Shown: piece by piece, positions 25,741 to 62,602 of the stretch
How the letters are laid out: every line of letters starts with the position of its first letter
Position numbering within the stretch: the first letter of the stretch is position 1
NCBI GenBank assembly: GCA_963971285.1
Contig: OZ020264.1
Span: 13,468,431-13,532,430, forward strand
Length of the DNA: 64,000 nucleotides
Direction: 5' to 3'
Source: Astropecten irregularis
Taxonomy: Eukaryota > Echinodermata > Asteroidea > Paxillosida > Astropectinidae
Notes under the pieces: model-generated
Database searches by the model: none
What the model was told of the DNA's origin: nothing
The model's input: only the letters and a program-made list of their open reading frames with translations
Made by a program: the position numbers and the translations under genes

Positions 25741-28700
25741 ATGGGATCGAAACGGGGACCAGGGAACACTCTCATTGCGTTTGAGGATGACCTCAACTCC
25801 ATAGTTAAAGAGGTAAGTCCCTTTAATGTACATTTCTAATCCACAGCTAATAAATATTAACCCTAGCATTGTTTGACAATAAGGCCGTATATTTGCATAA
25901 AAGTTGTGTGTTTTATCTTAAAACTTGTATGTTTCAACTTTCAAGCAACCTTTTATATTTTCAATCTTGCAACAGGGCCAAAAACAAATGTATACATTTA
26001 TTACCGGTATTTTCATTTTATCATCTTTATTTCCTCTGCAGAATGTTCCACGAGACAGATTTATTCTATTGTCCTAGACCTTTAAGTTTAAGAACCATTC
26101 CAAACTTATTATCAGCTGAATTTGTGTTTATTTCAACAGTATTTGGAGTTCTGCTCTTTTGGCACAACACTGAAATCGTTTGATTCGGAAGCGAGGGAGA
26201 GAGGTAAACCATTGAAACCACTTCCAAAGCGACCATGGGATGTAAAGAAGAAAGATCTACAGGTACGAAATACTTTGTAAAACAGACAAATTAGACAAAC
26301 AGACTAACAAATGGAGGCAAACCTTACAGGCCAGTATGCAGGCCATTTTACAGGCCACAATACAAGCCATTCACAGAGAAAGTTAGAGCACATGTAATAA
26401 CAGCCATTTTGGCTTCCAACTCATACAAGACAAGAGCTGCTTACCACACATTTGCACAGTCTCCATAGGTTGAACTGGACCATGAACCATACATTACCAC
26501 ACTAACCACACTGTGGTGTATTGTGGTATTCAGGATTCTACACGTTACCACAGCGTACCATGTTATTACAATTGTTATGTTATCTCTTTGCAGTCCAACC
26601 TGCTCTCTATGTTCAAGATTGGTTCTCGTAAGGAATTCTTTCAGCTTTGGGATGAGAACATTCCACAAGGTGTCAAGACCAATGATCCTGTCTGCAAGAA
26701 ATTAGAATTCTATCTGAGTATCTACTTTGCCATCTATCCTATCAAGTATCAACTCTCCACAGGCAAGAAGGTAAGAGACAGAATACAAAGTGATTTACTC
26801 ACCAAACCCTTCAGAGTAGCTGAGGTGGGATTCAAACTTCTGTTTTACTATTTCCTGGCAGACGTAATTAATCCATGTATTAATTGCATCTGTGTTCAGA
26901 GCTCACAGCTTGCGGTGTGCACGAAAATGTTGATGTATTGAAACACAAATCAAGGGGGTAACAGGACCACAATGTTGGGGGACAATAAAGGCTTCATAGA
27001 ACCTCTTGTTTTAGACAGTACCCCCATTCAATGTATTTGAATGGAAATAACAAAGCAATCATGAATATTCTCCTGCCATCATGCCATGAGGTGAACTGCT
27101 TGAGATGCTTCCCATCCAGAAGGGGTTATTAGTTCGCACTGTTAGCCAGAAAATCGTTTCTGTAATTATCTTTTCTTATTTTTGTTTCCTCAGAGTAAGA
27201 TCCGAGTGGAGGAATCCATGTTAGCCTTCAAGACCTTCCTGGAGTCACGTGGAGCTGCTCTCAGTCAAACCACAGAATTCCTACCGTTCTACGCCCTTCC
27301 GTTTGTACCTGATCCAACCAAGCATCCATCCTATAAGGAACTGTTTCAAGACTCTTGGGTACCAGACCTTCAGGTCAGATTGGAGAAGTTTTTGATGTTG
27401 ACTTTGCCAGCTCATCCTCAGCCGAGATTGTTTGAGATCTATGTATCCTTGACAAGTAGCTATCGTATAGTTTTTAGATCTTTCATTTGTATAAACATGA
27501 GAGTGTTAGATTGGGCGGTATTGTAGAGTTATTTGTTCTGGTTCATGAGCTGTTTGCTGTTTGTTAAGGGTCATCCTAATTACCGACAACTACCGACAAC
27601 GGTATGACTTCTTATTATTAGTATCCCGCTGTATAACCTTGGAGAAAGATCCTGCTAGGATCGAAACGTCAGGCCCTTCTTATTCCAGGTCTAATCATTA
27701 CATACTCTAGGTAATTGATTTTGTCGGGCAATAATTTTCCAACGATACAGTAATTGTATTTGTAGACTTTTAAACAGTTGAGTGGAAGTTTTTCTTAATT
27801 CAGTTTTTATAAACAGCAAGACTTGAACAACAGTAAGTATCTCAGTCTTATTCAGTGTTGTCATTCCTGTATTCACTCCAGTACATTTTAAGATGTACGG
27901 CTTTTCCCAGTTTCTCTGGATAAAATTAACTGATGCCTATTAATGTGTTTATTACTGACATTTTGATTATCTTTATCAGAAAATGCCGAGCAAATGAACC
28001 AGTTGCAGCAGAATGTAGTGGAAGCAGAGAAACGATGTATGACATATATCAAACGCTACAACAAACTACAGGTAAGAAATATTGGAGGAATCTTACACAT
28101 TATGGCGTTTATTGCTGGGAAAACATTTTCAATTCTATCTTTTGTATATATTTTTGTATGTACATTGACACTATGTATGAACCACACACTTTATATAGAA
28201 GATTATTTTTGTACATCTTGCTACCGCAAGTCTGACTTTATTCAGTACTTCGACCATGCGTAGCTTTAAGTCTTATACTTTGTATGAAACTTCAACATTA
28301 GAAAGTTGAACACAGTTTAAATTATTACATCTGTACAATACTAAAATGTTCTGCATGTTTGTATATTCTATTGCAGTCTGACTACCACAATTTAATAGGA
28401 ATAACTGCTGAACTAGTTGACTCGCTAGAAAGTTGTATCAACGGAAATCCGGTAAGCGTATTATATCAGCTCACAACATCCTATATGTGAAGTCAACTAA
28501 TTTTGGTTGACATCAACTCTTCATCGATCTAGTTCTAAGCCCAGAATATCATGAATCTGTGAATGTTTTTATTTACCTGCTTTCGATTTGTTTGGGAAGT
28601 TAGGTCCTGTGTCAGTTGACATCTTGATTTGCTGATTTTCAACACGTCATTAAAGCTTTAGACTTGCACTAGTTGAAATCGACTAATTTTATCCACTCAT

Positions 28701-31700: not shown

Positions 31701-34700
31701 ACTGTGGTACGTTTATCCCGTTGTTTTGCATTTGAATAGATTTGGAATTTTAGTGCAGACTTGTAATCTGTGAGTTCCGAGCACAGATGCGGTGACATGG
31801 ACTACCTCTGCCTGGAATTCTTACTATTCTGCATGATATGTTAATTTGTTTGTTTGTTTGTTTGATTGTAGGGAGGACATATTTAGGTCGTAATGAGGAT
31901 ATAGTATCCGTTCTTCAATTGGCTTTACAATCAGAAGATAGGGGTCCCATCACTAGAGAGAACGTTCTTGGAGCATTGCAAAAACTCAGCCTCAAGTAAG
32001 TCACCAATGAGTAAATCCTTACAGCCTGAAACTACAAGCCCCAGACCCAGTCCCGAACCCCAAACCCCAAATCCCCAAACCTCTAATCCCAAACTTGATA
32101 TGACCCCAAACCCCAAATCCAGTACCCCAGACCCCAGATCCCAGATCTCAGACCCAGTCCTCTAGCTCCAAACCCCCGCAGACCTCAAATCAAACCCAAA
32201 ACCCAAACACCAAAACGCACATTTCCCCAACCAAGCCTTTCTTTCCTATATTTTGTAAACCACACCATAAACGGTTTTTGTTTTCTGACACTAGACGGCA
32301 TCTCCAGACATCAATGATAAATGCAGGCATCATAGACTGGCTGATCGGTGTGCTAGAAGACAGTGACTCCCTTTCCGATTATACCCTTGAATACTCAGTT
32401 GCTCTTCTGATGAATCTGTGTCTCAGAACATCAGGTAATTATCCAGATATTTCAAATATCTAAAGGCCATTAAGACCGCCAAGGCAAGAGGTTTTGGAGC
32501 TCTCTCTGTGAATCTTGGAATGATGGTGTCGCTCTGCGTTCATTTGTTTCAGGGAAGACACGGTGCGTCAATGACAAGTCTAAGATGTTGAAGGTTCTGA
32601 GTGACCTGCTAGGACATGAAGACCAAGAGGTAAGAGCAAACCACCAGTCCACATCAGTGTAACGTCAAACTGTCAATATTCAACACAGTTTTGAAAGTTA
32701 TCATACCCACAGTGCTTCTACTTTGCTATGGGGATCTTGGTGCTTGTATCCCTTAGCATGATACTTTGCTCTAATTGTTATTCTCCTCCTACGAGGTAAT
32801 GGATTCCAGAATTAAGGATAGAGATGGTACATGTATGTGCTTGTCGCAAGATTCACTTGTTTATATTTGTAATTACTGTTTATTTGTGCATAGATCCGCC
32901 CATATGTAAATGGAACCCTTTACAGCATCCTTTCTGTGTCGGAGATCCGAGAAGAAGCTAAGGCAATGGTAAGCCCAATTAAGAATCATGATCCAATTTA
33001 ACTATTTTTCATCAGATAAACACAAGGGAAACTGACTGGGTTAGATTAAGTCATTGAAAAGAGAACAAAGAAAAATTGAGTGGAGCGGGATTCAGACCAG
33101 TGACCACCGGAATACCATATTGGTGCTCTTACCAACTGAGCTATCCAGCCCTATGCTAGCAGTCTCCCTAATAGTCAATTATGTTTGCTCGGTTGGCTGT
33201 CAAAAGCCACAAAACCACTCACATACCGCCGTATCCCAAGAATCATTTATTAAACTATTGTTCACAATCGTTGGTTTTTGTTTTCAAATGTCTTGGCAAA
33301 AAAAAAAAAAAAATTAATGTTGCTTCATTAAATGTTGCTATTTGTATTTACATTGATGACTCACCTTTTAAATTTTGCTTATATTTTGACTCTGTGTTTG
33401 TGCTTAGGGAATGGAAGAAACACTGAAATGTTTCATCAAGGAGGACAGTCCTGAGATGAACCGGCAGATTCATTTCATCATTAAGCAGCTTAATACAGGT
33501 ATCTTTATACCATCCTTGTCATACACATACTCACATAGAGTAAGGCTTGGTCTCAAATCTCTGGCTGGGGCCGCAAATAACGCAAAAGTCTATAGAAGCT
33601 AGAAGCGGCTGCAGTCACTGGCTAGTGGCTGCCATAGATGCATGTGTAATTTGCAACCGTAGCCATAGATTTGGAATACAAATTGGCTTTAATAACCCCT
33701 TCCGCCCGTTTTTTTTTGTCTTCACCAGCCAGTCTTATTAGACACCGGCTCACATAGAGGTCATCTGGCAGGGTAACATATTGCGCTCTGCTCCGACTGC
33801 TCGAAAAAAATATTCAAATGCAATTCAAGGGATGTTTTTTTCTGTTTAGTTGAAATCCCCAAGATGATTTACTATTTACATTTGATTAAACTCTGTTTTT
33901 CTCAAGATGTGATCAGTGAAGACGTCGAATCTGATGATGAAGAAGAAGAAGAGGAAGCAGAGGTAATGATTTGCATATCATTTGCATGTATTGAATATTC
34001 ATTTTGATCATAACTTTGCTGAGACACCATGTATAGATATCTCATTTGTGAGTATATGTGGGTCTTTATAGAACCAGTTACTTGACATTTCAAATTGTAT
34101 ACACGTACTCTGTTGAGTCTGTTCGTCATATCTATTGCATACGATTTTGCATATTAAGTACAATATGGGCGACTCCAAGAGTTTGCAAAACATGTAAGCC
34201 CCTCCCCCTTCCCACAACTCCAGAGTTAATCTGTCTTGTAATTGGTCTATTTCATTGTAGGATGAGCAAGACCAAGATGCGATGGAGGCGGATCTTGATA
34301 AAGCAGAAGCAGTCAAAGCCAAACCAGGAGAACTAGCTGGAGAGAAACTGCTTAGTACGGAATACCTAGGGGTAAGGATTCATGAATTATTCATGATATT
34401 ACTTGAAAGTGTGTACCTAGGCCTCATGAATTATTCATATTTTTTTCATAATTTGTCCTATTAATGTAGTGTGTTTTGATGAGCCGTAGGAATTGTCTTT
34501 TTCATTTCCTAACTGAATTTTTCAATTCCAGATGCTGACCAATACTCAATATCTAAATCAAGACAAGGTAGCATATGAATATTCAGTGCTCATGAATTAT
34601 TCAAATCCCTCTACCCAATCAGTGTTCCAGTCTTGCTTGATCCCATCCTTACCCTGAACACTTAATGTATTAATATTATCGCACAGGCTAGGCATGCATT

Positions 34701-46894: not shown

Positions 46895-48010
46895 TCAGTG
46901 TTTGATGTTTTGGTATTCTTCGTTCTTGAGCTCATATTTGGTCTTCTCCTCTGGCTTGGCGTAGTCATACACATGACTTTCATCCTGGTCTTCAGGTATT
47001 TGGTTGTAAGTGTGCTGGATGTCGCCTGTTTCATTAGTCGTATTAAGTCCCATGTGCTGTGTGTTGCTGTCATCCGTTGGTTGTAGCTCCATGAAGGGAT
47101 AAGCTTTCTGTGCATTGGTTGCCTCCTCCTTCATGCTCTTAATATGGCGATGTCTGTGAACGAGGAGCAAGATGTTGATGATGACAGAGATGACGAAAAG
47201 GAGGATGAATAAAACGGCCGTAGCAATCCAGCCACCGTAGCAGGGTTGCAAGGAGACTGTTGGCAGTGCTGTTGTCATAGACAGCACATTTATTGGTCCT
47301 ATGGTGCAGTCTCTTGCTATACCAGGGGATGAGGATGGTAGCCCAATTTGACACGTGTAGATGCTACCATTATTAGCTGCACTTACTTCCAGATGTAAGG
47401 AGGATGTTTGTATGTTGTTGTTGGTTGATATACTCCATGGATAAATCTGTTCAGACGGTAGGACTTGTACCGAGACTCGAGGTTCACCCATCTCAGCAGT
47501 GCAACTCATGTTAAGACTGGTTCCTTCTTGTACAGTGTGTGGACCATTGGGGAAGCAGATAGGGAACATGTCAGATGGGAAGTAATTAACTGTTAAGTTA
47601 TAACCATCAGTTGCCAGTGTGGTGCTTCTGTCTCCATCTGAATCCTTGATTCTACAGTAATACTGCCCGGTGTCATTCCTTTGGATGTTGTAGATATTAA
47701 GGATTTCAGCCCTATATGCCATCGAGTTAGATCTGAAACTGAATGAATAACGGTTCGCTATGCCCATTTCATTCCTTGCTATAATCACATCCTGATTGCC
47801 GATGATTCTTGACCACTCAATGACATTACCTGCCTGCAGGTTGTTGGCTGCACATTGTAGCCGAACCATTTGACCCTCTACAGGATCATCTAATGGTGCC
47901 CATTTAATCAGAGTCACAGCTTGTCCGCTGACTCCACCCAGCGGACCTGTATGAAGAGAAGCTACAACACACAGCAGGAGTAGATACATCAACCTAGATC
48001 CACCATCCAT
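46895..48010 (-). CDS. IgR-A: intronless two-Ig-domain receptor with YxxM/YxN tail
   Basis: 371 aa in one exon. Residues 1-30 are a signal peptide (MYLLLLCVVASL core). Ig domain 1 has C53, W66 and C119 (NDTGQYYC); Ig domain 2 has C170 and C220 (NGSIYTC). They are joined by a YFPSDMFPICFPNG linker with an extra Cys, probably paired with C235. The TM segment is about 261-285. The cytoplasmic tail (286-371) has Tyr 304 in YPFM (YxxM, a PI3K p85 SH2 type site), Tyr 335 in YNQI, Tyr 348/350, Tyr 359 and Tyr 366 in YQNI (YxN, Grb2 type). There is no ITIM with a proper -2 residue and no ITAM. No family name is recognised. The start is supported by alignment with IgR-B over the signal peptide and 5' flank. 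First (3'-most in map order) of four tandem paralogs. Likely a cell-surface recognition receptor; the ligand is unknown. Confidence 0.85.
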   Translation of the reverse strand: MDGGSRLMYLLLLCVVASLHTGPLGGVSGQAVTLIKWAPLDDPVEGQMVRLQCAANNLQAGNVIEWSRIIGNQDVIIARNEMGIANRYSFSFRSNSMAYRAEILNIYNIQRNDTGQYYCRIKDSDGDRSTTLATDGYNLTVNYFPSDMFPICFPNGPHTVQEGTSLNMSCTAEMGEPRVSVQVLPSEQIYPWSISTNNNIQTSSLHLEVSAANNGSIYTCQIGLPSSSPGIARDCTIGPINVLSMTTALPTVSLQPCYGGWIATAVLFILLFVISVIINILLLVHRHRHIKSMKEEATNAQKAYPFMELQPTDDSNTQHMGLNTTNETGDIQHTYNQIPEDQDESHVYDYAKPEEKTKYELKNEEYQNIKH

Positions 48011-48175
48011 GGTTAGAGCAAGAACTTTCTCTTACAGAATGCGAAGGCTGTAGGGAGCTGTACTGGTTTATTCAGTCAAACAGGATGATATTGATCGGGC
48101 TAATATTTGGTTGTAGTCCTTACTGGTGGATGATGTAGATTACACTGCACTTGACACGGATGCCTGTGAATATAA
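48011..48175 (-). promoter_or_regulatory. Conserved 5' flank of IgR-A
   Basis: About 165 bp upstream of the ATG is nearly the same as the flanks of IgR-B and, for about 95 bp, IgR-C (TTTCTCTTACAGAATGCG and TCATTCAGTCAAAC-type text on +). It probably holds the shared 5' UTR and core promoter, copied with the genes. Confidence 0.6.
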
Positions 48176-48514
48176 AGCTACGCAGATGCTATCCTGTGTG
48201 GTTTTCATGTCACTCAATCCTTTAACCGCATTGCCATGACGGCATAGATATCGTTTTTAAATTTTCACCATACATTACTAATCAAAACGATGATGTAGCA
48301 ATAGTTTGGACTGTGTGCTTATTTTCATCGACATTATACAAATACATGCTAGCTACGATAGTTTGCATTTGTATTCATTCAAAATAATGAAGATATAAAT
48401 GATATAGTGGGATTTATTTCAGCGTTAACATGTTAATGTCAATGATAAACTGAATTATTGTATCGACCGAGCCACAAGTATATGGTTGGTCACGCGTTGT
48501 GAATACGTTGAGGT

Positions 48515-48659
48515 AATGGGAGACTTTTGGAGAGTCGGTCTTGAATCAACAGCGCACGCGCACGCACGCGCAATACAACGCGCGCATGCTCACAATTGCA
48601 CAAGCATGGTTTGCGCGTGCGCTGTTGACTCAAGACCGACTCTCCAAAAGTCTCCCATT
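48515..48659. mobile_element. Foldback MITE with AATGGGAGACTTTTGG ends
   Basis: 145 bp, with arms of about 50 bp: AATGGGAGACTTTTGGAG, then AGTCGGTCTTGA and CAACAGCGCACGCGC, all mirrored at the right end. Very high arm identity suggests a young insertion. Confidence 0.85.
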
Positions 48660-48750
48660 GGTTGTCATGTGCAAAAACTATTTGGAAACAAAGTAAAGTT
48701 GATTCGCATTCCTGCACATAAATCTAAGACTTGAAATAAATTACACTAAG

Positions 48751-49120
48751 TTAAAGGTATAATACATGATTGGTAAAGGTCACAGAACAGCGCCCACACT
48801 TTGTCTGATCCACCATGTAAATGAAATAATATACCTGTGAAAATTTAAGCTCAATCTGCCATCTGAGTCACGAGGAAATAACAAAAGAAAAAAAAGACTA
48901 ATTTTTTCTTATAGAACATATAGAATGGTTTTGATCTTACACCGAGATCAAAACTGTTTTCGGTCTTTGTTTTACCCATTTCTCGATAAATACACCATTT
49001 CAGGCGAAAATATTCTAACAGTATGTTTCTACCAGCACCATCTTTATATCCTGAAAGTTATAGGTAAATCTGTAAACATTTCTGTTTTGCTATGTTACCA
49101 ATCCTGTACTGTACCTTTAA
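48751..49120. mobile_element. MITE, TTAAAGGTA family, copy 2
   Basis: Left TTAAAGGTATAATACATG, right CTGTACTGTACCTTTAA; the interior shares GTATGTTTCTACCA and GAAAGTTATAGG with 4148-4532. Confidence 0.7.
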
Positions 49121-50330
49121 TTGGTCTTTTAGGGGATTCATCAGAAATGGCAGAATAAATAATGTACAATGAGAAACGCACCTTTTTACAGTCAAACCAA
49201 TCCACGATTACATACATAAAATGTTACTTTTACATAGGCCGTCCGTATTGTACTTGGAAATGAATAGCATTATTGTGTTTACAATCCACTGAAATTTACA
49301 GGGGAATTCCCCTGTATTATTAGGTTGTGTATATCTCCGCCACTTTTAGGTTCACAATAGTTTCCACGACCTGGGCTTTTAGTTATTGCCCAAGGCAAGC
49401 GTATGACGCAGATGAATAAGTACATTTAAATTGAATAATGTTCCCATGTGATGTGGATGGTTAACCAAGCAGTACATATACCTCCATGGAACACATGTAC
49501 CCTTAAACACTCAGCCTTTGTGAGGTCGAATCAGCTCACAGTGCGTCAGTAAGATTAATTGCTGAAAGGTTTAGGATTTGAACTTTCGTTTTGACACCAA
49601 AGCCCCAAATACACGGAAATAACATAAAGCAATTTTGAGTCGTGCGTGGGAATTTGTCAAAATGTAGATTTTTTTAGATGGATAGGAATCATGTATGGTT
49701 CCTTATTCTAGTCCAATATCTATATTACATCTAATTCACACCCAAAACTTGATATAAGTACGACATGATAAAGTATAATTATAGTAACGTACAGACATTC
49801 TGAGTACGCCGTTTAAAGTATAATGATGAGATACTTATAAAATACAATTATTTCCCAATATCGTGGTATAAGAACAACTCTCAATACAAATCTTAGGTTA
49901 CCTTTATAATTTTATGAACATCGAATTCAACTCTTGGTCCTTTTTATGCATAACTATATTAACATGACTTGAAAGTATTCAAGAATCGTGTGTATTCGCA
50001 CTGAATACAATTCGGGCAACTCAAAACAGCATTGAAATATGGTCTGAAATTGTGCATTAATTATTGTTTGCATAATATTTGTAAACCTCATCGGTGACGT
50101 AGCAAGCTGGTTTTTATATTTGCAGTTTCGTTTCCACTGTCTTGACTTTAATCAGTGCGTATATTCAATCAGATGGACATGTCATTTCTTTGTTATATAC
50201 AGAAAAATGTAAAGAGGTCGAGTGCATCACGTGATCCGTGATAGAGAGAGGAATGGGCGTGGTCTCAAATACGCCCGCCCTCCATAGCTAGCTACGTCAC
50301 TGCTCATTTGTTTCTCAAATCATACATCAC

Positions 50331-52409
50331 CTACTTGGCCATTGGCATAATGCTGGCGTACAATGTCTGTTCCTCCTTTGGCTCTTGTACGGTGTCTGAT
50401 GTGTCTTGTTGTAAATCAAGATCAGCATACATGACGTCATCTGATGTAAGATCCACATTGGCGTCTTGAAGATGGCGGGGAGGTACTTGACTGTAGTCAT
50501 CTATTGATGCAGTGTGGTGTAAATCCAGGGCATTGTGTCTCTGCTGGTGTGATGGTGGCTTGGGTGGGCGTGGTGGCATCTGGGCATCTTGCCCAGCATC
50601 TTCAGCATTTTGAGGCATCCTTGGGTAGTTATCTTCCTCTCCTTGGTGACCGGCATCTCCTGGGACTACCATTGGTTGTACATCTGGGGAATCGGAAGAC
50701 GACAAAGATGATCGAGACAGTTTTGGTTTGGGCTTTTGGGTGGATGTTTGATGTGATCTGTCTGGTGTATTAATCGCATCCTCTGGAGGAGGTGGTGATG
50801 GATATTGAGCCGAAGCTAGAGGAGCTTCATCGGTGGCAGTCTTTGAAGACTTGCGGATTCCTTTTGGTTTTGAAGTCAAGGGTGGTTTGGGGGTGTGAGA
50901 AACCGGCTTGACCATCGCTGTGGGTTTAGGCTTGGTGTGTGGTACAGCTGATACTGGGGAAGTAAGGGCTTCATCATCATTTGTGGTGAGTGTAGGAGTG
51001 GCGTATTGGGGTTCAGTGGTTTGAGGTGATTTGACAGGAAGAGGTTCAGCATCAGCCTTGATCTTCAGCTCATTGCTGTTTCCATCTGAAGTCAGCTTGT
51101 GTTTCTGCACCTCTGCATACATAGGCGCACCACTTATCTCATCAACTCCCTCTGAAGATGTTCTGTCAATACTTTGTCCATGTCCATGCTCAATCCTAAC
51201 ATTTGCTTCTATCTTTTGAGAACTTGATATATCCGGCGAGATATCATCTTCTTTCTTAAATGTATTGGTTTTCTGTGGAAGAGCGTAGAGACCATCTATT
51301 GCAGTGTTGTTATCCAACCTTGTGAAGTGCTCAGTTTCATGTTCAGATTCTACACTCACTATGACGTTGGGAGAGTTCTCCTTCATTTCAAGTTGGCTGT
51401 TAACGTATGTATCATTGGATACTGTGAACGTGTCAGGGTTCGTTTCGATGTGTTTCTGCTTTTTATCTGTGCTTGAGCCACGTCTGCATATTAAGCAGAA
51501 TACTATTAATAATATGAGGAGTAAGAGGAGACAACCTCCTCCTCCAGCCGCTCCTGCAATGATAGGTATTTGCAGACTGCTTGAGCCTGTAGTAGGCTCG
51601 ACTGTTCTGGGCTCATTACTGGTCACCACATCGTGGGTATCCTTTGATGTCGTTGGCTCATGTCTGGCTGGATATCTTGGTGTTGTCATGGTTACCACGG
51701 TGATTGGTCCAATGGTGCAGTTTCTTTCCACATCAGGGAAATAGTCTTTTGAACTGATTTGACACGTATAGATGCTACCATTATGAGCTGCACTTACTTG
51801 CAGATGTAATGTTGATATTTCCATGTCGTTGTTAGTTGATTTAGTCCATACATAAATCATTCCATTCGTTAATATTTCTACGTAGACATGTGGCTCACCT
51901 ACCTCAGTAGTGCAACTCATGTTTAGACTGGCTCCTTCTTGTACAGCGTGTGGACCACTAGGGAAGCAGACAGGGTACATGTCAGATGGGAAGTAATTAA
52001 CAGTTAAATCATAACCAGCAATTGCTAGAGTGGTTCCATCTGAATCCTTGAGCGTACAGTCATAATGCCCGGTGTGATTCCTCTGAATGTTGAAGATGGT
52101 AAGTATCTCAATCCTATGTGGAAATGTAGATTGGAGAGTGATTGAATGTCCGTCTAATGTACTTGTTGCATCCCTTGCAATCAAATACCGATTAGACATG
52201 TTTCTTGACCACTCGATTATATCGTCGGCTTTCACGTTGCTGCCATCACATTGTAGCTGAACCATATCCCCCTCTGCAGGATTACCTTCTGCTGGTGTTA
52301 TTTTGTCAAGAGTCACAGATTGTCCGCTGACTGCAACCAGCGGACCTGTATGAAGAGAAGCTACAACACACAGCAGGAGCAGATACATTAACCTAGATCC
52401 ACCATCCAT
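50331..52409 (-). CDS. IgR-B: intronless two-Ig-domain receptor with ITIM-ITSM tail
   Basis: 692 aa, single exon. Signal peptide 1-30 is nearly identical to IgR-A. Ig1: C54, W67, C118; Ig2: C166, C216. A short Thr/Pro stalk runs about 241-278, and the TM is about 281-307 (AGAAGGGG then a Leu/Ile core) with no charged residue. The long tail (309-692) has Tyr 335 (TYVNS, YxN type), Tyr 375, Tyr 431 (PMYAEV), Tyr 469, Tyr 639, then VMYADL (659-664, an ITIM by the V/I/L/S-x-Y-x-x-L/I/V rule) and TLYASI (682-687, an ITSM by T-x-Y-x-x-V/I). The two tyrosines are 23 residues apart. Proline motifs MPPRPPKPPS and KPKPT suit SH3 domains. By vertebrate analogy (PD-1, Siglecs), phosphorylation would recruit SHP-type phosphatases; that role is inferred. 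Its last 145 nt are identical to those of IgR-D. Confidence 0.88.
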   Translation of the reverse strand: MDGGSRLMYLLLLCVVASLHTGPLVAVSGQSVTLDKITPAEGNPAEGDMVQLQCDGSNVKADDIIEWSRNMSNRYLIARDATSTLDGHSITLQSTFPHRIEILTIFNIQRNHTGHYDCTLKDSDGTTLAIAGYDLTVNYFPSDMYPVCFPSGPHAVQEGASLNMSCTTEVGEPHVYVEILTNGMIYVWTKSTNNDMEISTLHLQVSAAHNGSIYTCQISSKDYFPDVERNCTIGPITVVTMTTPRYPARHEPTTSKDTHDVVTSNEPRTVEPTTGSSSLQIPIIAGAAGGGGCLLLLLILLIVFCLICRRGSSTDKKQKHIETNPDTFTVSNDTYVNSQLEMKENSPNVIVSVESEHETEHFTRLDNNTAIDGLYALPQKTNTFKKEDDISPDISSSQKIEANVRIEHGHGQSIDRTSSEGVDEISGAPMYAEVQKHKLTSDGNSNELKIKADAEPLPVKSPQTTEPQYATPTLTTNDDEALTSPVSAVPHTKPKPTAMVKPVSHTPKPPLTSKPKGIRKSSKTATDEAPLASAQYPSPPPPEDAINTPDRSHQTSTQKPKPKLSRSSLSSSDSPDVQPMVVPGDAGHQGEEDNYPRMPQNAEDAGQDAQMPPRPPKPPSHQQRHNALDLHHTASIDDYSQVPPRHLQDANVDLTSDDVMYADLDLQQDTSDTVQEPKEEQTLYASIMPMAK

Positions 52410-52578
52410 GGTTAGAACAAGAACTTTCTCTTACAGAATGCGAAGGCTGTAGGGAATTAACTGTACTGGTTCATTCAGTCAAACATCAGGATGATATGGA
52501 TCGGGCTAATATTGGTTTGTAGTCGTTACTGGTGGATGATGAAGAGTGCACTGCACTTGACGTGGATGCCGTATGAAT
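52410..52578 (-). promoter_or_regulatory. Conserved 5' flank of IgR-B
   Basis: Matches the IgR-A flank closely over about 165 bp, with small indels (AATTAACTG and CAT insertions). Probable 5' UTR and core promoter. Confidence 0.6.
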
Positions 52579-54721
52579 AATACTCAGAATTATTGGTTCA
52601 TTTCCGGGTTCATTCTGACATTCGTCAGATTTCACGCCTCAGTGATTCTGAAGTTCTGAGTCTGGGTAGACATAGGTCACCTTTGTAAATCCCCTGAACT
52701 ATTTATTCAACCGTGAGTTTTGGTACAAATTGCTGAATATTTATGAAATAAACCAGAATCAATACACGATGAATTAAACGTGATAATGCCTATGGAGTTT
52801 CAAATGCATTGGTTGTGTTCTTACAAAATTATAGGGATTGGAAAAACCGACATATCTGACGATTTGTTGGAAAACTCTCTAAGATTGAAACATTTCTCAA
52901 AGATATTCTGCACTGGATAATGACAGGGTAATAATGAGCTCTGTGTGAATGAACGATAAGTGACATATTCACCAATTGCTTGTTGGCTTTGATTGATATA
53001 AATGTCTCACTGTGTCTGATAGAGAATTAGACCTAGAACCTTTTGAATTCCATTATTAATGAACACCTTGCACTTTATTTGGTATTGTTTGAACATGCTT
53101 TGTCTTGAAAATGATGCAGTGTTAATAATTATGATTGATATTTCTAAGACATCGGGTCAATAATATTGCAGAATGACTGAAATTTATATACATGTATTTA
53201 TTTGCAACTCCCTCACCCTACCCCCTAGGGTGTGTGCAAAATCATGTTAAAATTGGAGGATTTTGGGAAAGTTAAAACAGTTCATTAAAACCTCGAACTT
53301 TGACTTCACCTGGTCACGCCCATAGAGGGCGGTATTCAAACCAATCAAACCAATTCATCCTCTTGCTGATTGGGGGAGTGTGTGTCAGAAGTGTGTGGTT
53401 TGAACCAGAATTCATTGCATGTGACCCATTTTGTACTGATGATCACATCGATGAAATCGTGAAAAAATTGATGAAACATGAATAGAAATGGATCAAAGTT
53501 TGACTCTATGTTTGACCTCTATACAATTCACACAATTTAATAAATTACCGGGGAAATGAATAGAATAAGTAAACACTGCCGTATTTACAGTCTAATCTCG
53601 AGTCTCAGTTGAATCAAACATGTTATAATTATATGTTTATCTTCATGTTTATTCACTGTACTAATCACAAGGTATTATTCATGTGGGTGTGGCATACCAT
53701 TGTTATAAACAACACTCTTAAATTGATGACTGACTGGTAATCAGAATGTACGCATACACGATTTAGACAGCAAAGAAACAAATTAGGATTAATAATTATA
53801 TTAATAAGTAAAAATTACAGCCAAGATCAATTGTTCTAGTTACAAATAATAGTTACCAAGACCGATACAAACATGCCATATTTAAAATGGATGTGGAAAC
53901 TAAATTAAGAGAATTATTTGGTAATGTTATAAGAAATCAAAGAGTAAGATTCTTTTACGTGCAAAATAATTATTAAAGTAGGTATTATGCAGTGTTATTT
54001 TAATTGTATTCCATTCCATTATGATATGAAAAGGAACGAAGCTTTTAATAAAACATATTTTGAAACTTATACTTTATGTACATGCACAATTCACATGCAC
54101 CAGCATACATCTATAGGGCGCCCTCTATATACAATTCTCGAAATTAATGATAGTCGTGTTTATCGGATCAGTTTATGTGATAATCAACATGATCACAACA
54201 CGAACCAGTCTCAACCACTCTGAAATTGCAGTTTGATACATGGTTTGTTCTTATCATTTCTACAACTAGTTTCCATCCGATTATAATAAATACAAAGTCA
54301 TATTTCTTCCCTTTGCCTAATGTCGAACAGAAGCAATTTCCTTCTGAAAAATTTCGCCATTGGATATTGAATGTTTTCCTTTTGTCTACTTTTTAAATCT
54401 GTTGACATCAGACTGATGTAACTGCTTATCGTTTTTTTTTTTTTTTTTAAGGATGTTTAAAGGTCCGGAGTTTTGCGAATTTAGGCATACAATACAGCAT
54501 CATATACATATGTACAGAATTGAAACAAGCAAAACCAAAGCTCCATTATATATGAATCTATATCGTTAGTAAGTTTCAACCTGATAATCATTTAAGACTC
54601 AGCAATCACTCTTACGTCTTCATATGTGGTGCTACTTTTACGGATTGGAAGTTCGTTCCAATCCCTTCTCCGTCTGTCTGGTATTAGGTAAGCTAATCGT
54701 TGGCTGTGTTAGCCGTAGGTT
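52579..54721. other. Spacer between IgR-B and IgR-C
   Basis: No gene recognised. The last 60-150 bp beside IgR-C (about 54590-54721) look like decayed tail-coding sequence of the IgR-A type (see findings). A poly-T run lies at about 54431-54450. The rest is AT-rich unique sequence. Confidence 0.45.
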
Positions 54722-55966
54722 TCATGTATTGTTTGTAGTGTCATCAATTTGCTGTAGCTCCATGCAGTTATCAGCTATCTGTGCATTGGTTGTATTCTCC
54801 TCTGTGGGTCTTAGAAGACGTCTGAGTTTGATGACGTAATAGATGAGGAAGAGGCAGATGATGAAGATGATGATAACAAAGATAATGAAAGGGACGATGA
54901 TGGCAGCAGAGGAAGGACATACAGAACAGCATGTGCATGACTGATCGGTCTCTGGTGGGGTCGAGGTTGCATCCTGCTGTGTACCACTGGTAGCTGCCGT
55001 CGTCCCTGCGTTGCTGGATTGTGGGGATTCTGTTGTAGGGTTTATAGTGCTACTGCCAGACTCGCAGGTTGTGTGCATGTAGGGAAGAGTTGATGGTTTG
55101 AAGGTTGTCGTGTATAATGGTGTTGCCATGGATATCACGTTGACAGAACCACCTTCAGTTGTTTCTTGCTCACCTTGGATATCTGTTGATGTCGTTGACT
55201 CATGAGTGGTTGGGGTTTGGTGTCTTGGTGTTGTCATAGTTACCACGGTGATTGGTCCGATGGTGCAGGATCTTACCATACACGAAAATGATGCGTATTT
55301 TGAACTGATTTGACATGTGTATATGCTACCATTATTATCTGCACTTACTTGCAGATGTAAGGAGGATGTTTTGATGTCGTTGTTAATTGATTTATTCCAT
55401 TGATAAACATGTCCACACGTCAACATTTGTACCCAGACTTGTGGTTGACCTGTCTCAGTAGTGCAACTCATGTTTAGACTGGTCCCTTCTTGTACAGTGA
55501 TTGAGCCATTAGGGAAGCAGACAGGGTACATGTCAGATGGGAAGTAAAGAACTGTTAAACCATATTTATCAGAGTCCAGTTCGGTGCCGCTGTCTCCATC
55601 TGAGTCCTTGATTCTACAGTAATACCGCCCGGTGTCATTCCTATGAACGTTGTAGATCGTAAGAGTTTCAGCCCTTTTTGCCATCGAGGGAGACACGATG
55701 TTGATTGAATAACTTTTCCCGTTGTCTGTGGTCGTTCCATTCCTTGCTATAATCACATCATGATTGGCGATGTTTCTGGACCACTCAATGACATTACCTG
55801 CCTGCAGGTTGAAGGCATCACAACGTAGCTGAACCATGTCACCCTCTACAGGAATATCTCCCGGTTCAGATTTAAACAGAATCACGATTCTGCTGACCTC
55901 AGGACTGGTAGGAAGAGAAGCTACAACACACAGGAGCAGATACATTAACCTATATCCACCATCCAT
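54722..55966 (-). CDS. IgR-C: intronless two-Ig-domain receptor with short tyrosine-free tail
   Basis: 414 aa, one exon. The signal peptide (MYLLLCVVASL) is one Leu shorter than in IgR-A. Ig1: C49, W62, C117; Ig2: C168, C218, with extra cysteines C183 and C229. It has a long Thr/Ser/Pro-rich, mucin-like stalk (about 243-345) with a CTCCSVC cluster just before the TM (354-379). The tail has only about 35 residues, begins KLRRLLRP, and contains no tyrosine. Its AQIADNCMELQQIDD aligns with AQKAYPFMELQPTDD of IgR-A, with the YxxM tyrosine replaced, and it stops soon after. It could bind the same kind of ligand as its neighbours without tyrosine signalling, a decoy-like form. Whether it signals through a partner is unknown; the TM has no charged residue. 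Confidence 0.85.
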   Translation of the reverse strand: MDGGYRLMYLLLCVVASLPTSPEVSRIVILFKSEPGDIPVEGDMVQLRCDAFNLQAGNVIEWSRNIANHDVIIARNGTTTDNGKSYSINIVSPSMAKRAETLTIYNVHRNDTGRYYCRIKDSDGDSGTELDSDKYGLTVLYFPSDMYPVCFPNGSITVQEGTSLNMSCTTETGQPQVWVQMLTCGHVYQWNKSINNDIKTSSLHLQVSADNNGSIYTCQISSKYASFSCMVRSCTIGPITVVTMTTPRHQTPTTHESTTSTDIQGEQETTEGGSVNVISMATPLYTTTFKPSTLPYMHTTCESGSSTINPTTESPQSSNAGTTAATSGTQQDATSTPPETDQSCTCCSVCPSSAAIIVPFIIFVIIIFIICLFLIYYVIKLRRLLRPTEENTTNAQIADNCMELQQIDDTTNNT

Positions 55967-56065
55967 GGTTAGAGCAGGAACTTTCTCTTACAGAATGTGA
56001 AGGCTGTAGGGAGCTGCACTGGTTCATTCAGTCAAACAGGACGATATTGATCGGTATTAACATTT
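55967..56065 (-). promoter_or_regulatory. Conserved 5' flank of IgR-C
   Basis: About 95 bp upstream of the ATG match IgR-A and IgR-B (GGTTCATTCAGTCAAACAGG on +), then similarity is lost. Probable 5' UTR. Confidence 0.55.
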
Positions 56066-56954
56066 GATCCTTGTTGTATCATGGAGGGCTTATGAATTCA
56101 TAGTTAGTTATGTACACGTATTCTTACAGGGTTCTTTCAATAGCCTGACGTCATGCTCCAGTGAGTTTGAAAGAGTATGCAAAGATTTTACCGCGTCAGA
56201 AATGATTTTCATAATCGTTTATTCATAGGAACAGGGGCGTCTGTCATTTAAGTCTTTTCTTTGCAATCATCGCTATATATTACACTTAAGTTCAAATCGC
56301 CTTTGCAAGGCCGGCGTCGCTGATTTTGCGTTTACTAAATTTATAGTCACCACAGTTGCGATCATTAAAAATTGAACGTTTTGTTCGAGGCTAAAATACC
56401 TGACATTTGACATTTTCAAGAAGCGTTCTTCGTCAATGTCACTTTTCACTATAGTACCCATTGATCTCTATTTTTGAGTGGTATTTGCCGCCATGACTGA
56501 ACGCGCGCGTTAAGGCCATGCAGGATGGTTCGAAAATTCAAAAGCGATATAGAATGTGTTTGAATAGGGTCAAGCATGCAGATTTTTCAATCTACAGCTA
56601 GACTATCACTCCTTTTGGGATTTTGTGTACCAAACTTTAGTGTAAACTATTTGACAACGCATTCAATGCACACTTACGGCTTATCCGTGAAAGGGCCTAT
56701 TAACAGCTGTAAGGTTGCACAGTCTTATGAAGTGATCTTTATGCCGAATTATATGCGTTTGAATGATTTGGCCCTATTCACGTGACCAATGGCGGCCCCC
56801 AGTCAGACATAGATTTCTATGTGAAATTGTACGTTTCTAGTTCTATGATGAGGAACCAAACAAAGAAACACATCACTGAATAGTTTTTGATTTATTGACA
56901 GTATGTTTTTTCGCTCGATGCAGTTTTTCGTCTCTAATGCGAGCGTCTGTAAGG

Positions 56955-57562
56955 CCCATGGCCAGAGTTGTAATGACTCGAGTCAATGACTCGACTCGAG
57001 TCCGACTCGAGTCACATTTTTTGGTGACTCGACTCAACTCGAGTCCCGAAGGCTAAATGACTCGACTCGTGACTCGACTCGAGTCTCTCATCAGAATGGC
57101 TCGACTCGACTCGAGTAAGGCTAATAATGACTCGAGTCCCCCCTTCCCGCCCCAAAAATAAAACTTTGTCGCCATTATGTCGCATTACGTACTCCCTCCC
57201 TCTAGCACTATCTTGTGGTTTTGTAAATCCACGAAACCAGACTAACGTTTCACAACTGTGATAATTATGTGCATGTAAATGTGTTTCATCACAGGTTGTG
57301 ACCCGGATGTACTGGTAAATTAAAAAACAAAGCAAACAAATTCCAGTCTCTTGGTGTTTGTTTATTTCTAAATATTTGTGACTCGAATTGACTCGATCTA
57401 AATAATTGACTCGACTCGACTCGACTCGACTACACACCGTGACTCGACTCGACTCGACATTCATGACCAAATGACTCGACTCGACTCGAGTCACTACTTT
57501 AAAATGACTCGACTCGACTCGAGTCACAAAAAACAGTGACTCGTTACAACTCTGCCCATGGC
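56955..57562. mobile_element. hAT-type MITE with 8-bp target duplication, GACTCGA-rich
   Basis: The element is 56963-57554 (592 bp), flanked by CCCATGGC at 56955-56962 and 57555-57562, an exact 8-bp target-site duplication. The ends CAGAGTTGTAATGACTCG and GTGACTCGTTACAACTCTG are inverted repeats of the CAGRG type usual for hAT. Both arms are made of GACTCGACTCGAGTC variants; the middle (about 57140-57370) is unique sequence. No transposase. Confidence 0.9.
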
Positions 57563-58323
57563 ACACGAGGCATTTTATAGGCAATCTCCAGGACGAAAGG
57601 GTGAGTTCTTTCGTCTTTGAACTTTACATGATATTGTCTTTGGAATAATGAAAAACTACCAGAAAAATGTATTTTATACTAGCAGGATTTTCCTATTGTA
57701 TTATGTGGTGTACTTGGTTGCCTCCACTTTGCCTGTTATCGCCCTAACTTTCAAAATCCAAGCAAGTTTCGGACTGCTCATTTTATGATGCAGAGTTTGC
57801 AATAGTGAATCCGGGCACCGAAGTCAAATAATGAACAGTTATGCATCAAATCTATCGGCTGCTTAGTGTATTGTGGCTCCCCATTCGCCAAAGGCAGATG
57901 CGTGACAGGGGCGGGGTTTATGGCCAAATACGGGAGTTAGCCAATTTTGCAAAATCTCTTTCAAAAATCGGGATTTGAAATGGGACAAATGGCTGCAATA
58001 TCACAGACATTCCATGGAAGAGACACATGCCCGTACGTGGCCGTTCACCAAGAAGTTAAGATACTGGTTTAAAATAAGAATGTTTTTTTTTTACTTATAC
58101 CGACCAAAAGAGACTTCGAACTCTCTAGCAATTTGTCGTCACAAGAGGGCGATATTCATATAATTTCAAGACCTCCAGTTTTGTCTGACTAGGCGTGTGG
58201 GGTTTTATTAATTCATTGTACCGAGACTCATGTATGCGTATCACTCAATGCTGCAATTCATTTTAATCACTTCAAAGAAGCATTTACACAAAATATAAAA
58301 ACATGCAATCAAAACAAATTATA

Positions 58324-58611
58324 CAATTCAGCAGGCGCGGTTCTACGAATTCTAAGAAAATGCAAGTGAAAAAAAAATTCTTGACTATACTGGATTTTTG
58401 CAGTTATTAAGCGCAAATTACATACAAAAAAACGCGTTGTGTGGGCTATAATGGGCATGTTTTAATAAGACATAGCAGAAGCAAGTGTTAGAAGAACCCA
58501 AAATATTGGGTCTTCTAGCCCCCCCCCCCCCCCAAAAAAAAGAAAATAATAAATAATGGCTCTTCTAGCCCCCCAAAAAATTCTGGCTCTAGAACCGCGC
58601 CTGCAATTCAG
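58324..58611. mobile_element. hAT-type MITE with 8-bp target duplication CAATTCAG
   Basis: The element is 58332-58603 (272 bp). CAATTCAG occurs on both sides (58324-58331 and 58604-58611). Ends are CAGGCGCGGTTCTA and TAGAACCGCGCCTG, a perfect 14-bp terminal inverted repeat. It contains poly-C/poly-A runs near 58520. No coding capacity. Confidence 0.9.
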
Positions 58612-60259
58612 GAAATTAAATTGTGCCATTTAATGGGCAGACGAAAGCAACATCCCCGCCCCATTCACAATTCTTTAGCATGTCTTACATGTCTTGTATG
58701 TTGCACTCTTTTTAAGTTCGAAATTTCTTTGCTTATACGTTTATTGAATTAAACAAACGTAGCTTTCATTACGTACCCTCAATAAACGCTAGAAAATGTC
58801 AGTTTGTATTTTGCGACATGTTGGTGAAAGAATGAGATGTAAAAGCTTTATTGATGTTTCCGCAAATGTGAAGCACAGTTTCAATACGATCCAAACATTA
58901 TGTAAGAAAAGAATGCATTTCCTTCGGATAAGGCTCTATCTCTATCATTAGACACTTTTAACGTTTTAATTGATTAATCATTTCTCACAGTCCGGTCTTT
59001 TTAGAACTCAGATTTTCCGATGTATGACCTGCAGAATAGGCCTAGTAAAGTTTATAGCAAATTAACTGTATATGTATGGGCGATTATATTTGCAATACAT
59101 TGTGCTTAATATCTATGCATGATGTACATGTATGTACAAAATAATGTAAGCTTTGTTCAATTATAAGCATTAAAATCATTTAGCTTTATACATTCTACTT
59201 ACAGTGCAAACACTACTTCTCTTTCTATAATTTGTATAACTGTTTTTCTGTGCAACTTCACTTACATTTTTGTTTAATATTAGCTGATGAGTAATGGATA
59301 CATGAGTTAATCGCTTATCAATATTATTTACATCAACACCTAGACCAATATGACTAGTAGCAAAGCTATGTTGTTCCCGTTGTTTTACATGTTGATTTAT
59401 GTGTTGTTTAACATAATGAGCATATTACCTGGTGAAGTGGCATACACTTTTCCTATGTTGAACATTTTTACAAATCTTTTCCTTATTTATTCATTGTCTG
59501 GTGCTTCCCTGGGCTAATCAAATAAACAGCTTTTGTGATGTACTTTCCACTAAACCCATGTTGGTCTCGTGCCAAAAGGCCTTATAACCTGTACGTGCAG
59601 ATTTACAAAAGCAATTTTACACCAACTATACGTTCAAAAATGTACTTGAGTTCTGCGTACCGGGAAGCTTATTTCATAGAAAAATGAACATTAAAAACAA
59701 AATTCCTTTTTTTCAGACATAGTTCTGGCATATTTTTATAAGAAAAATCGATTGCGTTATTAGAAATGTACATCCATGTAAAACAAGTATTTATTTAGAC
59801 AACATATAAAATTCAACATTATCAACAATATCAGGCGAGAAAAACATGTGCAAGCTTTTTATCAATAACAGCAGTAGATCAAATATTCATGACAAATTGG
59901 TAATCAACATGGATTTCTCTGTTTAGACTTTCTACCGACCGACTTCCAACCTGCGCCAATTCAGTTGAAAATGAATAAAGTTCAATCTATGACTGCATGG
60001 CTGTTTCTGTTGTCCTTCATTGATGAATTCTGAGCAAATAGATCGTAGTACATAAAGTAGTAAACAGCAGTTTCCATGTTATTATAATGTGGTTTGAATG
60101 ATAATGACAGAAAATAATTTACAGTCATAGAGAGGAGCTCTGAGATTCAGTATGTAGACATTTACCTGTATTGTGATATTTCCTACATCAAACAAACAAT
60201 TGTTCTACCGTGGCCATATCCTACAGATAAAATTCTATCTTTCCTCAATTCATACTCAT

Positions 60260-62602
60260 CTACTTGGCCATTGGCATAATGCTGGCGTACAATGTCTGTT
60301 CCTCCTTTGGCTCTTGTACGGTGTCTGATGTGTCTTGTTGTAAATCAAGATCAGCATACATGACGTCATCTGATGTAAGATCCACATTGGCGTCTTGAAG
60401 ATGGTTAGTAAGGTGGGAAGGTTGACTCTGCTCATTTGTTGATGCAGTGTGGTGTAGATCCAGGGCATTTTGTCTCTGCTGGTGTGATGGTGGCTTGGGT
60501 GGGCGTGGTGGCATCTGAGCTGCAGTCAGACTATCCTCATCATCCTCAGCAGCATCTCTGGACATCTCGTAGTTATATCCCCCATTCTCCTCATAGCTGC
60601 TACCTTCTGGAGAGCCTATTTGCACCTCATCTGGAGGCAGCTCAGTGTGGTAGAGAACTGATTGGCTTTGTGTCTGCTCAGTTGAAGATGCGGATTCTAC
60701 AGTTGGTTTAGGTAGAGGTGTGGGTTTGTGAAGGGATGGCAGGCGTGATGACACTGCCGTAGACGTGGATGTTTTCGGTGGTTTGGGTGAAACTGCAGGC
60801 TTCATGGATGATAGGCGACGGGTTTCATCATCTGTCGTGGGTATGTTTATTGCAGGTGGTGGCGGTGGATACTGCATCGGCTCTCTTAAAGATAACGGAG
60901 TCAGCGATGGTTGAGTTGATGTTACATCTTGGTTGATGTCAACCATCGGCTGGTTAGAGTATCTTGAATTTCTGACAGGTTTTGAAGCCACGGGTGGTTT
61001 AGAATTATGACAAACCGGTTTGACCGTCGCAGTGGGTTTTGGCTTGGATTGTAGGTCAGCTAATAGTGTGGAATTGAGGGTTTCCTCTTCATTTGAAATG
61101 AATGCAGGATTGTCGTATTCTTGTTCAGTGATTTGAGTTGATTTTCGAGGAATAGAATCTGCTTCAACATTGCGGATCTTCTCTTGGCTGTCTTCAAATT
61201 GTGCCCGTGGATTCTGTGCCTCTAGAATGATAGGTGCACTTTGTAAGTGTTCATCTTCGATTTTCGCATCTTTTGATGGAGTGTCTTGAGATATTTGTGA
61301 GTTTGGGGCTGTCTGTGGGAGGGCATAGAGAACTTCTGATCCAGTGATTTTATCTACCCTCGTAAAATGTTCTATTTCTGGTTCAGATGCAGTGTCCACT
61401 TGACTCTCGTGTCCAACTGCCAGTTCATTACCATATCTTGGCGATGATTGTCGTTTCTGCACCAGGGCATACATAGGAACGCTGCTTATTCCATCATCAC
61501 TTGATGTAGACGTGTTGAGACCTTGCTGTTGTGTGATTGGTCTGGTAGACGAAGAGTTGGCGGTGTCGGGTCTATAGTCTGAGTAATCAGTGTTGATATC
61601 GATGGTGTATTCAAGTTTCTTTTCTCTACACCATCCACGTCTAAAGGTGCAAACTGGAACCAGTATCAACAGTAAAATGAGGATGGTTCCTCCAGTAGCT
61701 ACTCCAGCAATGATACCTAGTGGGATGCCATCAGTAGTCGGATTAATGGACATCATTGAAGTACTTGAATAATTATCATGTATTATTGTTCCTGTGGCAG
61801 TGGTTCTCGGCAATGTGTTTGATTTCTCGGTTTGAGTTGTTGATACATGGTTGGTGGTGGATGGTGCTGTTGTTGTAGGAAGCACATTGATTCGACCAAT
61901 GTAACATGATCTTTCCATATCAGGGAATGCAGTGTCTGAGGTGATTTTACATTGGATGAGATTACCGTCATCAGCTGCACTTACTGTGAGTTCTAATGAG
62001 CGTTTTATTTCATCGTCAGTCACACTGTACATCCACCTGTATACAACACCAGAAGTCATTATATGCATTTGTATCGATGGGTTACCCTTCTCGCTAGTAC
62101 AGCTCATGGTAAGAGTCGTTCCTTCTTGTACAGTGATAGGTCCGTTAGGGGAACAGGCAGGATATGGGAAGTATAACACTGATATTTGTGTCAGGGCAGT
62201 TGCCAAAGTCTGGTCTGTGCCGTCATGGGGATCTGACATTTTCACGTGACAGTAGTATGTACGGCTGTTATATCTATTAACATTATACATAGTCAGGGTT
62301 TCACTCCTTGCCGTTAGAGAAACTGGCTGTACAGACACTAAATATCCTGAGATCATGCTGGTTCCATATCTTGCTATCAGCACCTCAGTACCCATGATAT
62401 CTCTAAACCACTCAATGAAGAATCCTGATGGGAAGTTGGTAGCATCACATCGTAGTTCCACCGTGTCACCCTCTAGGATGTCGCCCATTGGAGATATCTT
62501 GTAGACTTGTATCGTTTGTCCATTGACTCCTGATATTGGACTGGTATTAAGAGAACACCACACATACATCAGACCCAAATACAACCAAGTCCCTCGATCC
62601 AT
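60260..62602 (-). CDS. IgR-D: intronless two-Ig-domain receptor with ITIM-ITSM tail
   Basis: 780 aa from the ATG at 62602, chosen because MDRGTWLYLGLMYVWCSL aligns with the signal peptides of the other three; the open frame extends 47 codons further upstream without a signal. Ig1: C52, W65, C118; Ig2: C168, C218. A Thr-rich stalk runs about 242-290; TM about 293-320. The tail holds Tyr 378 (VPMYALV), Tyr 426 (VLYALP), Tyr 496 (EYDNPAF), Tyr 651 (YHTEL), a long poly-Pro/Ser region, MPPRPPKPPS, then VMYADL (747-752, ITIM) and TLYASI (770-775, ITSM). Architecture is collinear with IgR-B (TRVDK, YALPQ, MYAxVQK blocks), but the ectodomain is the most diverged of the four and its 5' flank is unrelated. 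Inferred inhibitory-type receptor. Confidence 0.87.
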   Translation of the reverse strand: MDRGTWLYLGLMYVWCSLNTSPISGVNGQTIQVYKISPMGDILEGDTVELRCDATNFPSGFFIEWFRDIMGTEVLIARYGTSMISGYLVSVQPVSLTARSETLTMYNVNRYNSRTYYCHVKMSDPHDGTDQTLATALTQISVLYFPYPACSPNGPITVQEGTTLTMSCTSEKGNPSIQMHIMTSGVVYRWMYSVTDDEIKRSLELTVSAADDGNLIQCKITSDTAFPDMERSCYIGRINVLPTTTAPSTTNHVSTTQTEKSNTLPRTTATGTIIHDNYSSTSMMSINPTTDGIPLGIIAGVATGGTILILLLILVPVCTFRRGWCREKKLEYTIDINTDYSDYRPDTANSSSTRPITQQQGLNTSTSSDDGISSVPMYALVQKRQSSPRYGNELAVGHESQVDTASEPEIEHFTRVDKITGSEVLYALPQTAPNSQISQDTPSKDAKIEDEHLQSAPIILEAQNPRAQFEDSQEKIRNVEADSIPRKSTQITEQEYDNPAFISNEEETLNSTLLADLQSKPKPTATVKPVCHNSKPPVASKPVRNSRYSNQPMVDINQDVTSTQPSLTPLSLREPMQYPPPPPAINIPTTDDETRRLSSMKPAVSPKPPKTSTSTAVSSRLPSLHKPTPLPKPTVESASSTEQTQSQSVLYHTELPPDEVQIGSPEGSSYEENGGYNYEMSRDAAEDDEDSLTAAQMPPRPPKPPSHQQRQNALDLHHTASTNEQSQPSHLTNHLQDANVDLTSDDVMYADLDLQQDTSDTVQEPKEEQTLYASIMPMAK

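Follow-up and report, generated by a model that had tools for sequence, protein, structure and literature searches.

Heads and tails with separate histories in a putative paired-receptor family of one-exon immunoglobulin genes of the sea star Astropecten irregularis

Four adjacent genes, here called A to D, lie on the minus strand of a 64,000-nt stretch of the genome of the sea star Astropecten irregularis (contig OZ020264.1 of assembly GCA_963971285.1, positions 13,468,431 to 13,532,430; hereafter the window, within which the coordinates of A-D are given). Each encodes in a single exon a leader, two immunoglobulin (Ig) domains (D1 and D2), a transmembrane (TM) segment, and a cytoplasmic tail. 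We consider it probable, at roughly 70%, that these genes belong to a paired-receptor family whose heads (the ectodomains) and tails have been re-joined by recombination, with tails bearing an immunoreceptor tyrosine-based inhibition motif followed by a switch motif (ITIM-ITSM) inhibiting and those of the other class promoting a response. Sequence comparison shows that the two-Ig ectodomain shared by these genes comes with one of at least two classes of tail, and that each class is homologous across species. Some members of the first class end in ITIM-ITSM (B and D); the second has YMEL, YxxP, and YQN sites plus, in part of its members, a YxxL-x9-YxxL resembling an immunoreceptor tyrosine-based activation motif (ITAM). 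Heads and tails have different histories, from which we infer that recombination keeps re-joining them.

The evidence begins with a recurrent joint after D2. Five gene pairs of this genome (Table 1; loci other than A-D are named by genome coordinate) have ectodomain DNA that is about 77.5-90.5% identical on tails that are unrelated. Their matches begin upstream of the ATG or within the first 93 nt and end at nt 727-769 after the ATG, i.e., at or just past the end of D2; beyond the joint no nucleotide match was found in any of the five, and the tails compare at z scores of -1.4 to 0.7. ITIM/ITSM are opposed to ITAM-like motifs in two of the pairs, 13264368/13540467 and 580176/584811. The same pattern is seen in two more, 13277834/7099397 and 13249906/13261511, of which 13277834 and 13261511 lack an ITIM and the latter pair has a tail z of 3.4. 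Inside the window, A matches B from the 5' flank to just past D2, with no nucleotide match between their tails, and B shares a 149-nt tract with D in which the last 24 codons show no difference, compared to a synonymous divergence (dS) of about 1 or more in the ectodomain. Since the dS values of D1 and D2 are unequal within pairs (e.g., 0.175 and 0.463 for 13249906/13264368), exchange may also act on single domains. Because head and tail lie in one exon, sequence alone suffices to map the joint.

Trees of the heads and comparisons of the tails group the same proteins differently. On a 13-row ectodomain tree, A, B, and C form one clade (96/96) and the Asterias amurensis database proteins P0001, P0004, and P0005 another (100/100), and ectodomain groups by tail type were rejected by the approximately unbiased test for {A,P0004,P0005} (p-AU 9e-95), {B,D,P0001} (4e-31), and {B,D} (0.001). 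The tail of A groups with those of P0004 (z 24) and P0005 (z 21), to which it is homologous, and the tails of B and D group with that of P0001 (B-P0001 z 12, B-D z 45, compared to -0.6 for A-B). By these alignments, tails group by type across species, whereas heads do not track tail type. On a larger ectodomain tree of 60 rows (51 of this genome and nine database proteins), the B/D tail class requires 15 changes for its 16 rows against a shuffled mean of 14.3 and was as low in 410 of 500 shuffles, i.e., as if tails had been dealt at random. Both trees leave out the zebrafish protein P0010 and P0002, a 908-aa A. amurensis database model of two complete receptor copies joined head-to-tail that is probably a gene-prediction fusion, and the larger one also leaves out both halves of the broken locus 7118567/7119227. 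Old ectodomain lineages are common to species, with 580176 and 584811 grouping with P0003 and P0006-P0009 (98/86). The paired-receptor layout proposed in an earlier note on this DNA is therefore strengthened: similar ectodomains sit on unlike tails in further pairs of this genome and, at the protein level, in A. amurensis (P0001 vs. P0004/P0005), and one partner carries an ITIM or ITIM-ITSM (B, D, 13264368, and 13282728).

The tails of B and D both contain VMYADL and TLYASI at a tyrosine spacing of 23, an ITIM-ITSM pair that the earlier note had recognized and that shuffled tails yield at rates of just 0.00085 (B) and 0.00235 (D). Among 51 family members of this genome, which are related to each other and of which B and D are not independent, four have such a pair (0.041 expected). 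P0001 carries ITYAEL and TLYASI, likewise 23 apart, and P0006-P0008 have a pair at 24; in shuffled tails such pairs arise at rates of 0.0005 to 0.0034. ITAM-like sequences of the form YxxL/I-x6-12-YxxL/I occur in 6 of the same 51 rows (0.44 expected). Canonical ITAM spacing is 6-8, so that the x9 motifs of 13540467 and 584811 fall outside of it; 13540467 additionally bears TEYEEI. In the A class, PYMEL, QYM, and YDYAKP are found in many of the tails, and 7 of 24 end in YQN. The A tail had been described as YxxM/YxN, and YPFM and YQNI are indeed present, but the YxxM is not conserved, most relatives having PYMEL there, which weakens a role in recruiting PI3K. Similarly, the C tail, described as tyrosine-free, has no signalling tyrosine but does have two tyrosines at the membrane edge, its only ones; it is an A-type tail cut short, in which the tyrosine site of the A class reads NCMEL. 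In place of four tail types, of which the text of the earlier note listed three, homology gives two classes, B/D and A/C, defined as single-linkage clusters at z over 7. Outside every class stand 584811 and also 13282728, the latter with a strict ITIM-ITSM pair (best z 5.8, to 13264368). On the same contig as the window, 13546163 has an ITIM and its frame ends just before the ITSM position of its close tail relative 13264368.

Several observations weigh against a family of paired receptors with exchanged tails and opposed signals. The ITAM-like motif has been lost from A itself, and 12 of the 24 A-class rows contain an ITIM- or ITSM-consensus site compared to 3.9 expected by shuffling. Among the 16 B/D-class rows, seven have the ITIM-ITSM pair, one has both motifs at a different spacing, three have an ITIM-type site only, and five have neither motif. 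Judged by these predicted sites, the tail classes are not a clean inhibitory vs. activating split, and since every second A-class tail has a lone site of ITIM or ITSM type, opposite signalling signs stay putative. When the head tree is labelled by strict motifs, 6 changes are counted against a shuffled mean of 7.3 (51 of 300 shuffles go as low), and with relaxed labels 6 against 8.8 (6 of 300), so that by motif labels tails may cluster weakly on the head tree. The forks of B/7606224 (93/69) and of 13546163 with 13249906 and 13261511 (81/90) are unstarred. Pairwise ratios of nonsynonymous to synonymous change (dN/dS) are below 1 overall (D1 0.67, D2 0.63) and exceed 1 in 19 of 99 pairs for D1 and 10 of 99 for D2, the pairs being non-independent; strong positive selection in D1 is not supported overall by these values. 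Finally, ITIM pairs are also found in adhesion proteins (PECAM-1, MPZL1).

As complete open reading frames on the strand where they had been placed, A-D are confirmed as adjacent genes with intronless coding parts, and we rejected the possibility that they are exons of a larger gene, since this openness extends to most of the family (see below). ATGGAT is preceded by CTAACC in A, B, and C and by GTAACC in D. An acceptor-like CCCTACAG upstream of A, B, and C ends 38 nt before the ATG, so that a 5' untranslated region (UTR) intron is possible although the coding part is intronless. Hydropathy predicts one TM segment per protein, which contains no charged residue and thus fits signalling via the receptors' own tails. 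All of A-D match several Ig models, including V-set, above Pfam cut-offs, and C52, W65, Y116, C118, and the D2 cysteines are unchanged across seven proteins. With Ig folds that contain the Cys pair and Trp, A-D belong to the immunoglobulin superfamily (IgSF). Structural models of B and D agree with Ig-fold domains (predicted local distance difference test (pLDDT) score of 85.9 for the D ectodomain; low-quality stretches at 53-67 in the second domain of B), and the leader, two Ig domains, and TM segment that had been read from the sequence hold up. No sushi domain was matched by Pfam in A-D, which have two Ig domains only, and the last 89 residues of B matched no solved protein.

The closest relatives among the matches listed are, by sequence, sea-star proteins. 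B searched against 5.8 billion proteins gave at least three matches, all from A. amurensis (7989 candidates scored). With a profile built from short members, eight rows came back: six from A. amurensis, including P0003 that was already part of the query, one from A. rubens (LOC117302625), and the zebrafish CD22-like P0010 (24% identity over 49%) as the sole vertebrate protein match. A profile of long members gave at least one match, Patiria miniata LOC119732596 (7986 candidates scored), whose sister in this genome is locus 3470769 (support 100/94). A whole-genome search with B returned 63 rows, i.e., at least 60 loci once the three rows for D and the two for C8:1612 are each counted as one; these counts are minimum figures, and the lowest-scoring rows may stem from Ig genes outside the family. 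The contig that bears the window holds 42 of the 60 loci and contig C20 another five. Two groups on the former, about 230 kb apart and in opposite orientation, contain ectodomain sisters across groups and may be the two halves of an ancient inverted duplication. Of the 60 loci, 52 were examined and eight not fetched; 51 of the 52 have a single open frame through both Ig domains, the exception being the broken locus, and 50 of those 51 have a TM segment. Locus 13538034 has an open frame without a TM segment, and its product is perhaps secreted. Locus 1632640 stops shortly past the TM segment, and a run of N lies in the tail of 13563045. In the window, tblastn with 15 queries (A-D and P0001-P0011; E 0.01) found no further family copies.

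Receptors of this kind are known elsewhere. The head-tail pattern is described for Siglec-11/16 (PMC5701461) and CEACAM (PMC2832619), whose ectodomain similarity is kept by conversion that in human Siglec-11 includes about 240 bp of 5' UTR. As in A-D and their relatives, highly similar ligand-binding ectodomains sit on different tails in CEACAM1 and its ITAM-bearing relatives, where the tails are ITIM-ITSM vs. ITAM or ITAM-like (PMC2832619). In those vertebrate families, however, heads and tails are in separate exons, and the matches listed show no clear sequence relation to the Siglec, CEACAM, KIR, or SIRP families beyond the general Ig level. The amphioxus receptor BbLcLRR, which has ITIM or ITIM-like motifs and in Jurkat cells associates more with SHIP1 than with SHP1/2, is a leucine-rich repeat receptor with its TxYxxV site in the predicted ectodomain, unlike the Ig receptors A-D (PMC8211107). 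The earlier note recognized no comparable invertebrate family, but Botryllus FcoR and Hydractinia Alr are precedents, both of them clustered IgSF genes, with ITIM or hemITAM tails in the multigene FcoR family of an invertebrate deuterostome and ITIM/ITAM motifs in Alr (PMC12065747), a cnidarian family of 41 members (PMC11999971). No echinoderm case was found in the literature searched, comprising open-licence papers. An 'Igkappa' gene has been claimed for Asterias.

These precedents raise the alternative that the sea-star genes are allorecognition or gamete-recognition receptors with the same ITIM/ITAM-like logic. Among invertebrate families, FcoR and Alr come closest in layout, and the sea-star family is likewise multigene and clustered. 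Yet FcoR combines a V-type Ig, a sushi, and two C2 Ig domains, an architecture from which A-D differ by their two Ig domains without sushi, and FcoR motifs are swapped by splicing at oligomorphic loci (PMC12065747), whereas sea-star tails are exchanged between genes. The likeness to Alr is by description of the family, and none of its members is among the matches listed in the protein searches. Sea stars are solitary and, to our knowledge, have no known fusion reaction, and overall we regard this alternative as unlikely. The same holds for an expanded adhesion or neural-wiring family (nephrin/Neph, Dpr/DIP, or Dscam-like) whose tyrosine tails regulate junctions, which we would also call improbable. 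Foldseek with the D model placed SIRP-gamma in the first row, weakly (TM-score 0.37), and no family can be named by fold among those listed, since the rows for antibody V domains, Roughest, SYG-1, and SIRP give ties or weak scores. Adhesion and wiring rows tied with many antibody domains show the fold only, and the same match lists include the immune receptors SIRP-gamma, CD226, pIgR, and CD22. No adhesion family, including characterized non-immune ones, is among the matches listed in the protein searches, which leaves the earlier proposal standing in this respect, and wiring families do not, as far as we know, typically comprise some 60 clustered loci whose tails have been swapped. Retrotransposed, mostly functionless single-exon copies would explain intronless coding regions beside intron-bearing genes but are very improbable, given that nearly all examined loci are open, that tails are kept between species, and that upstream DNA is shared (87-169 nt of 5' flank among A, B, and C; about 400 nt in B/7606224), though single members may be dead.

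For the favored paired-receptor family, we propose that gene conversion or unequal exchange would re-join heads with tails so that one-head/two-tail pairs arise repeatedly. The V-like domain would bind a ligand and, by analogy to vertebrate families, a Src-family kinase would phosphorylate the tails. ITIM-ITSM tails as in B and D would then recruit a SHP-2-like phosphatase and inhibit, while the other class would recruit Grb2- or Crk-type adaptors, or Syk where ITAM-like, and promote a response; C, without signalling tyrosine, could be a decoy or co-receptor. The cells may, with less confidence, be coelomocytes, and the family's role could be immune or in self/non-self recognition.

Table 1. 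Features of genes A-D (window coordinates), family groups on the contig bearing the window (contig coordinates), and pairs with similar heads and unrelated tails
Feature	Position	Strand	Remarks
Gene A, single-exon coding sequence (CDS)	46895..48010	-	371 aa; shared ATG used as start; leader, V-like D1, D2, TM, 87-aa tail with YPFM, YNQI, YDYAKP, YELK, YQNI
A, TM segment	47159..47215	-	hydropathy
A, 5' flank to just past D2	47267..48171	-	79% identical to B
Gene B, single-exon CDS	50331..52409	-	692 aa; A-type ectodomain, D-type ITIM-ITSM tail
B, TM segment	51486..51542	-	hydropathy
B, ITIM VMYADL	50418..50435	-
B, ITSM TLYASI	50349..50366	-
149-nt tract, B copy	50327..50475	-	99% identical to D copy; spans ITIM and ITSM
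Gene C, single-exon CDS	54722..55966	-	414 aa; A-type ectodomain, longer stalk; tail of A type but truncated, no signalling tyrosine
C, TM segment	54842..54898	-	hydropathy
Gene D, single-exon CDS	60260..62602	-	780 aa; divergent ectodomain, proline-rich ITIM-ITSM tail
D, TM segment	61658..61714	-	hydropathy
D, ITIM VMYADL	60347..60364	-
D, ITSM TLYASI	60278..60295	-
149-nt tract, D copy	60256..60404	-	identity to B ends at stop codon
Group of 13 loci	0.54-0.64 Mb
Group of 9 loci	13.246-13.285 Mb (13246136-13285079)	+
Group of 11 loci	13.515-13.565 Mb (13515328-13564799)	-	A-D included
Pair B / 7606224			77.5% identity, plus upstream DNA
Pair 13264368 (ITIM-ITSM) / 13540467 (ITAM-like)			88.4%; fork starred
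Pair 13282728 (ITIM-ITSM) / 13543824			83.6%; fork starred
Pair 580176 (ITIM- and ITSM-type sites) / 584811 (ITAM-like)			83.8%; fork starred
Pair 13249906 / 13546163 (ITIM)			90.5%; fork of 13546163 with 13249906 and 13261511

The earlier statement that all other genes of the window are intron-rich was checked for two neighbours only. The intron-bearing ARMC9 has exons at 27146-27526 and 32104-32463 on the plus strand; its CTLH and ARM domains, which pass the Pfam cut-offs, lie in different frames. An exon of a cyclophilin-type peptidyl-prolyl isomerase is found at 20668-21051 on the minus strand, with a frame that covers only positions 94-139 of 159. The window further contains arrays of a 16-nt unit (CAACTCGGTCCGTRAC) at 21742-21911, 24265-24450, and 25078-25247, the third on the opposite strand. 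A minisatellite at 57012-57623, built from GACTCGACTCG-rich units of 33-65 nt, yields a 203-aa open frame that has no Pfam match and is probably not a gene. An inverted repeat at 48515-48659, with 48-nt arms 98% complementary and 49 nt between them, resembles a miniature inverted-repeat transposable element.

While this kind of system is known from Botryllus, Hydractinia, and vertebrates, the one-exon layout with its recurrent joint is what differs in the sea star. A bolder version, to which we give slightly less than even odds, is that sea stars, independently of vertebrates, evolved a genome-wide set of about 60 one-exon paired receptors. Recombination at a single recurrent joint, where D2 ends, would re-couple their changing heads to conserved inhibitory or activating tails, and one such event could then provide a new specificity with an activating as well as an inhibitory receptor. 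If true, our reading would add a paired-receptor system in echinoderms to the tunicate and cnidarian examples and would suggest that heads and tails are re-paired time and again where receptors with ITIM signalling face ligands that change. For tests of these ideas, sea-star coelomocytes are readily obtained, and one may speculate about a link to immune failure in sea-star disease.

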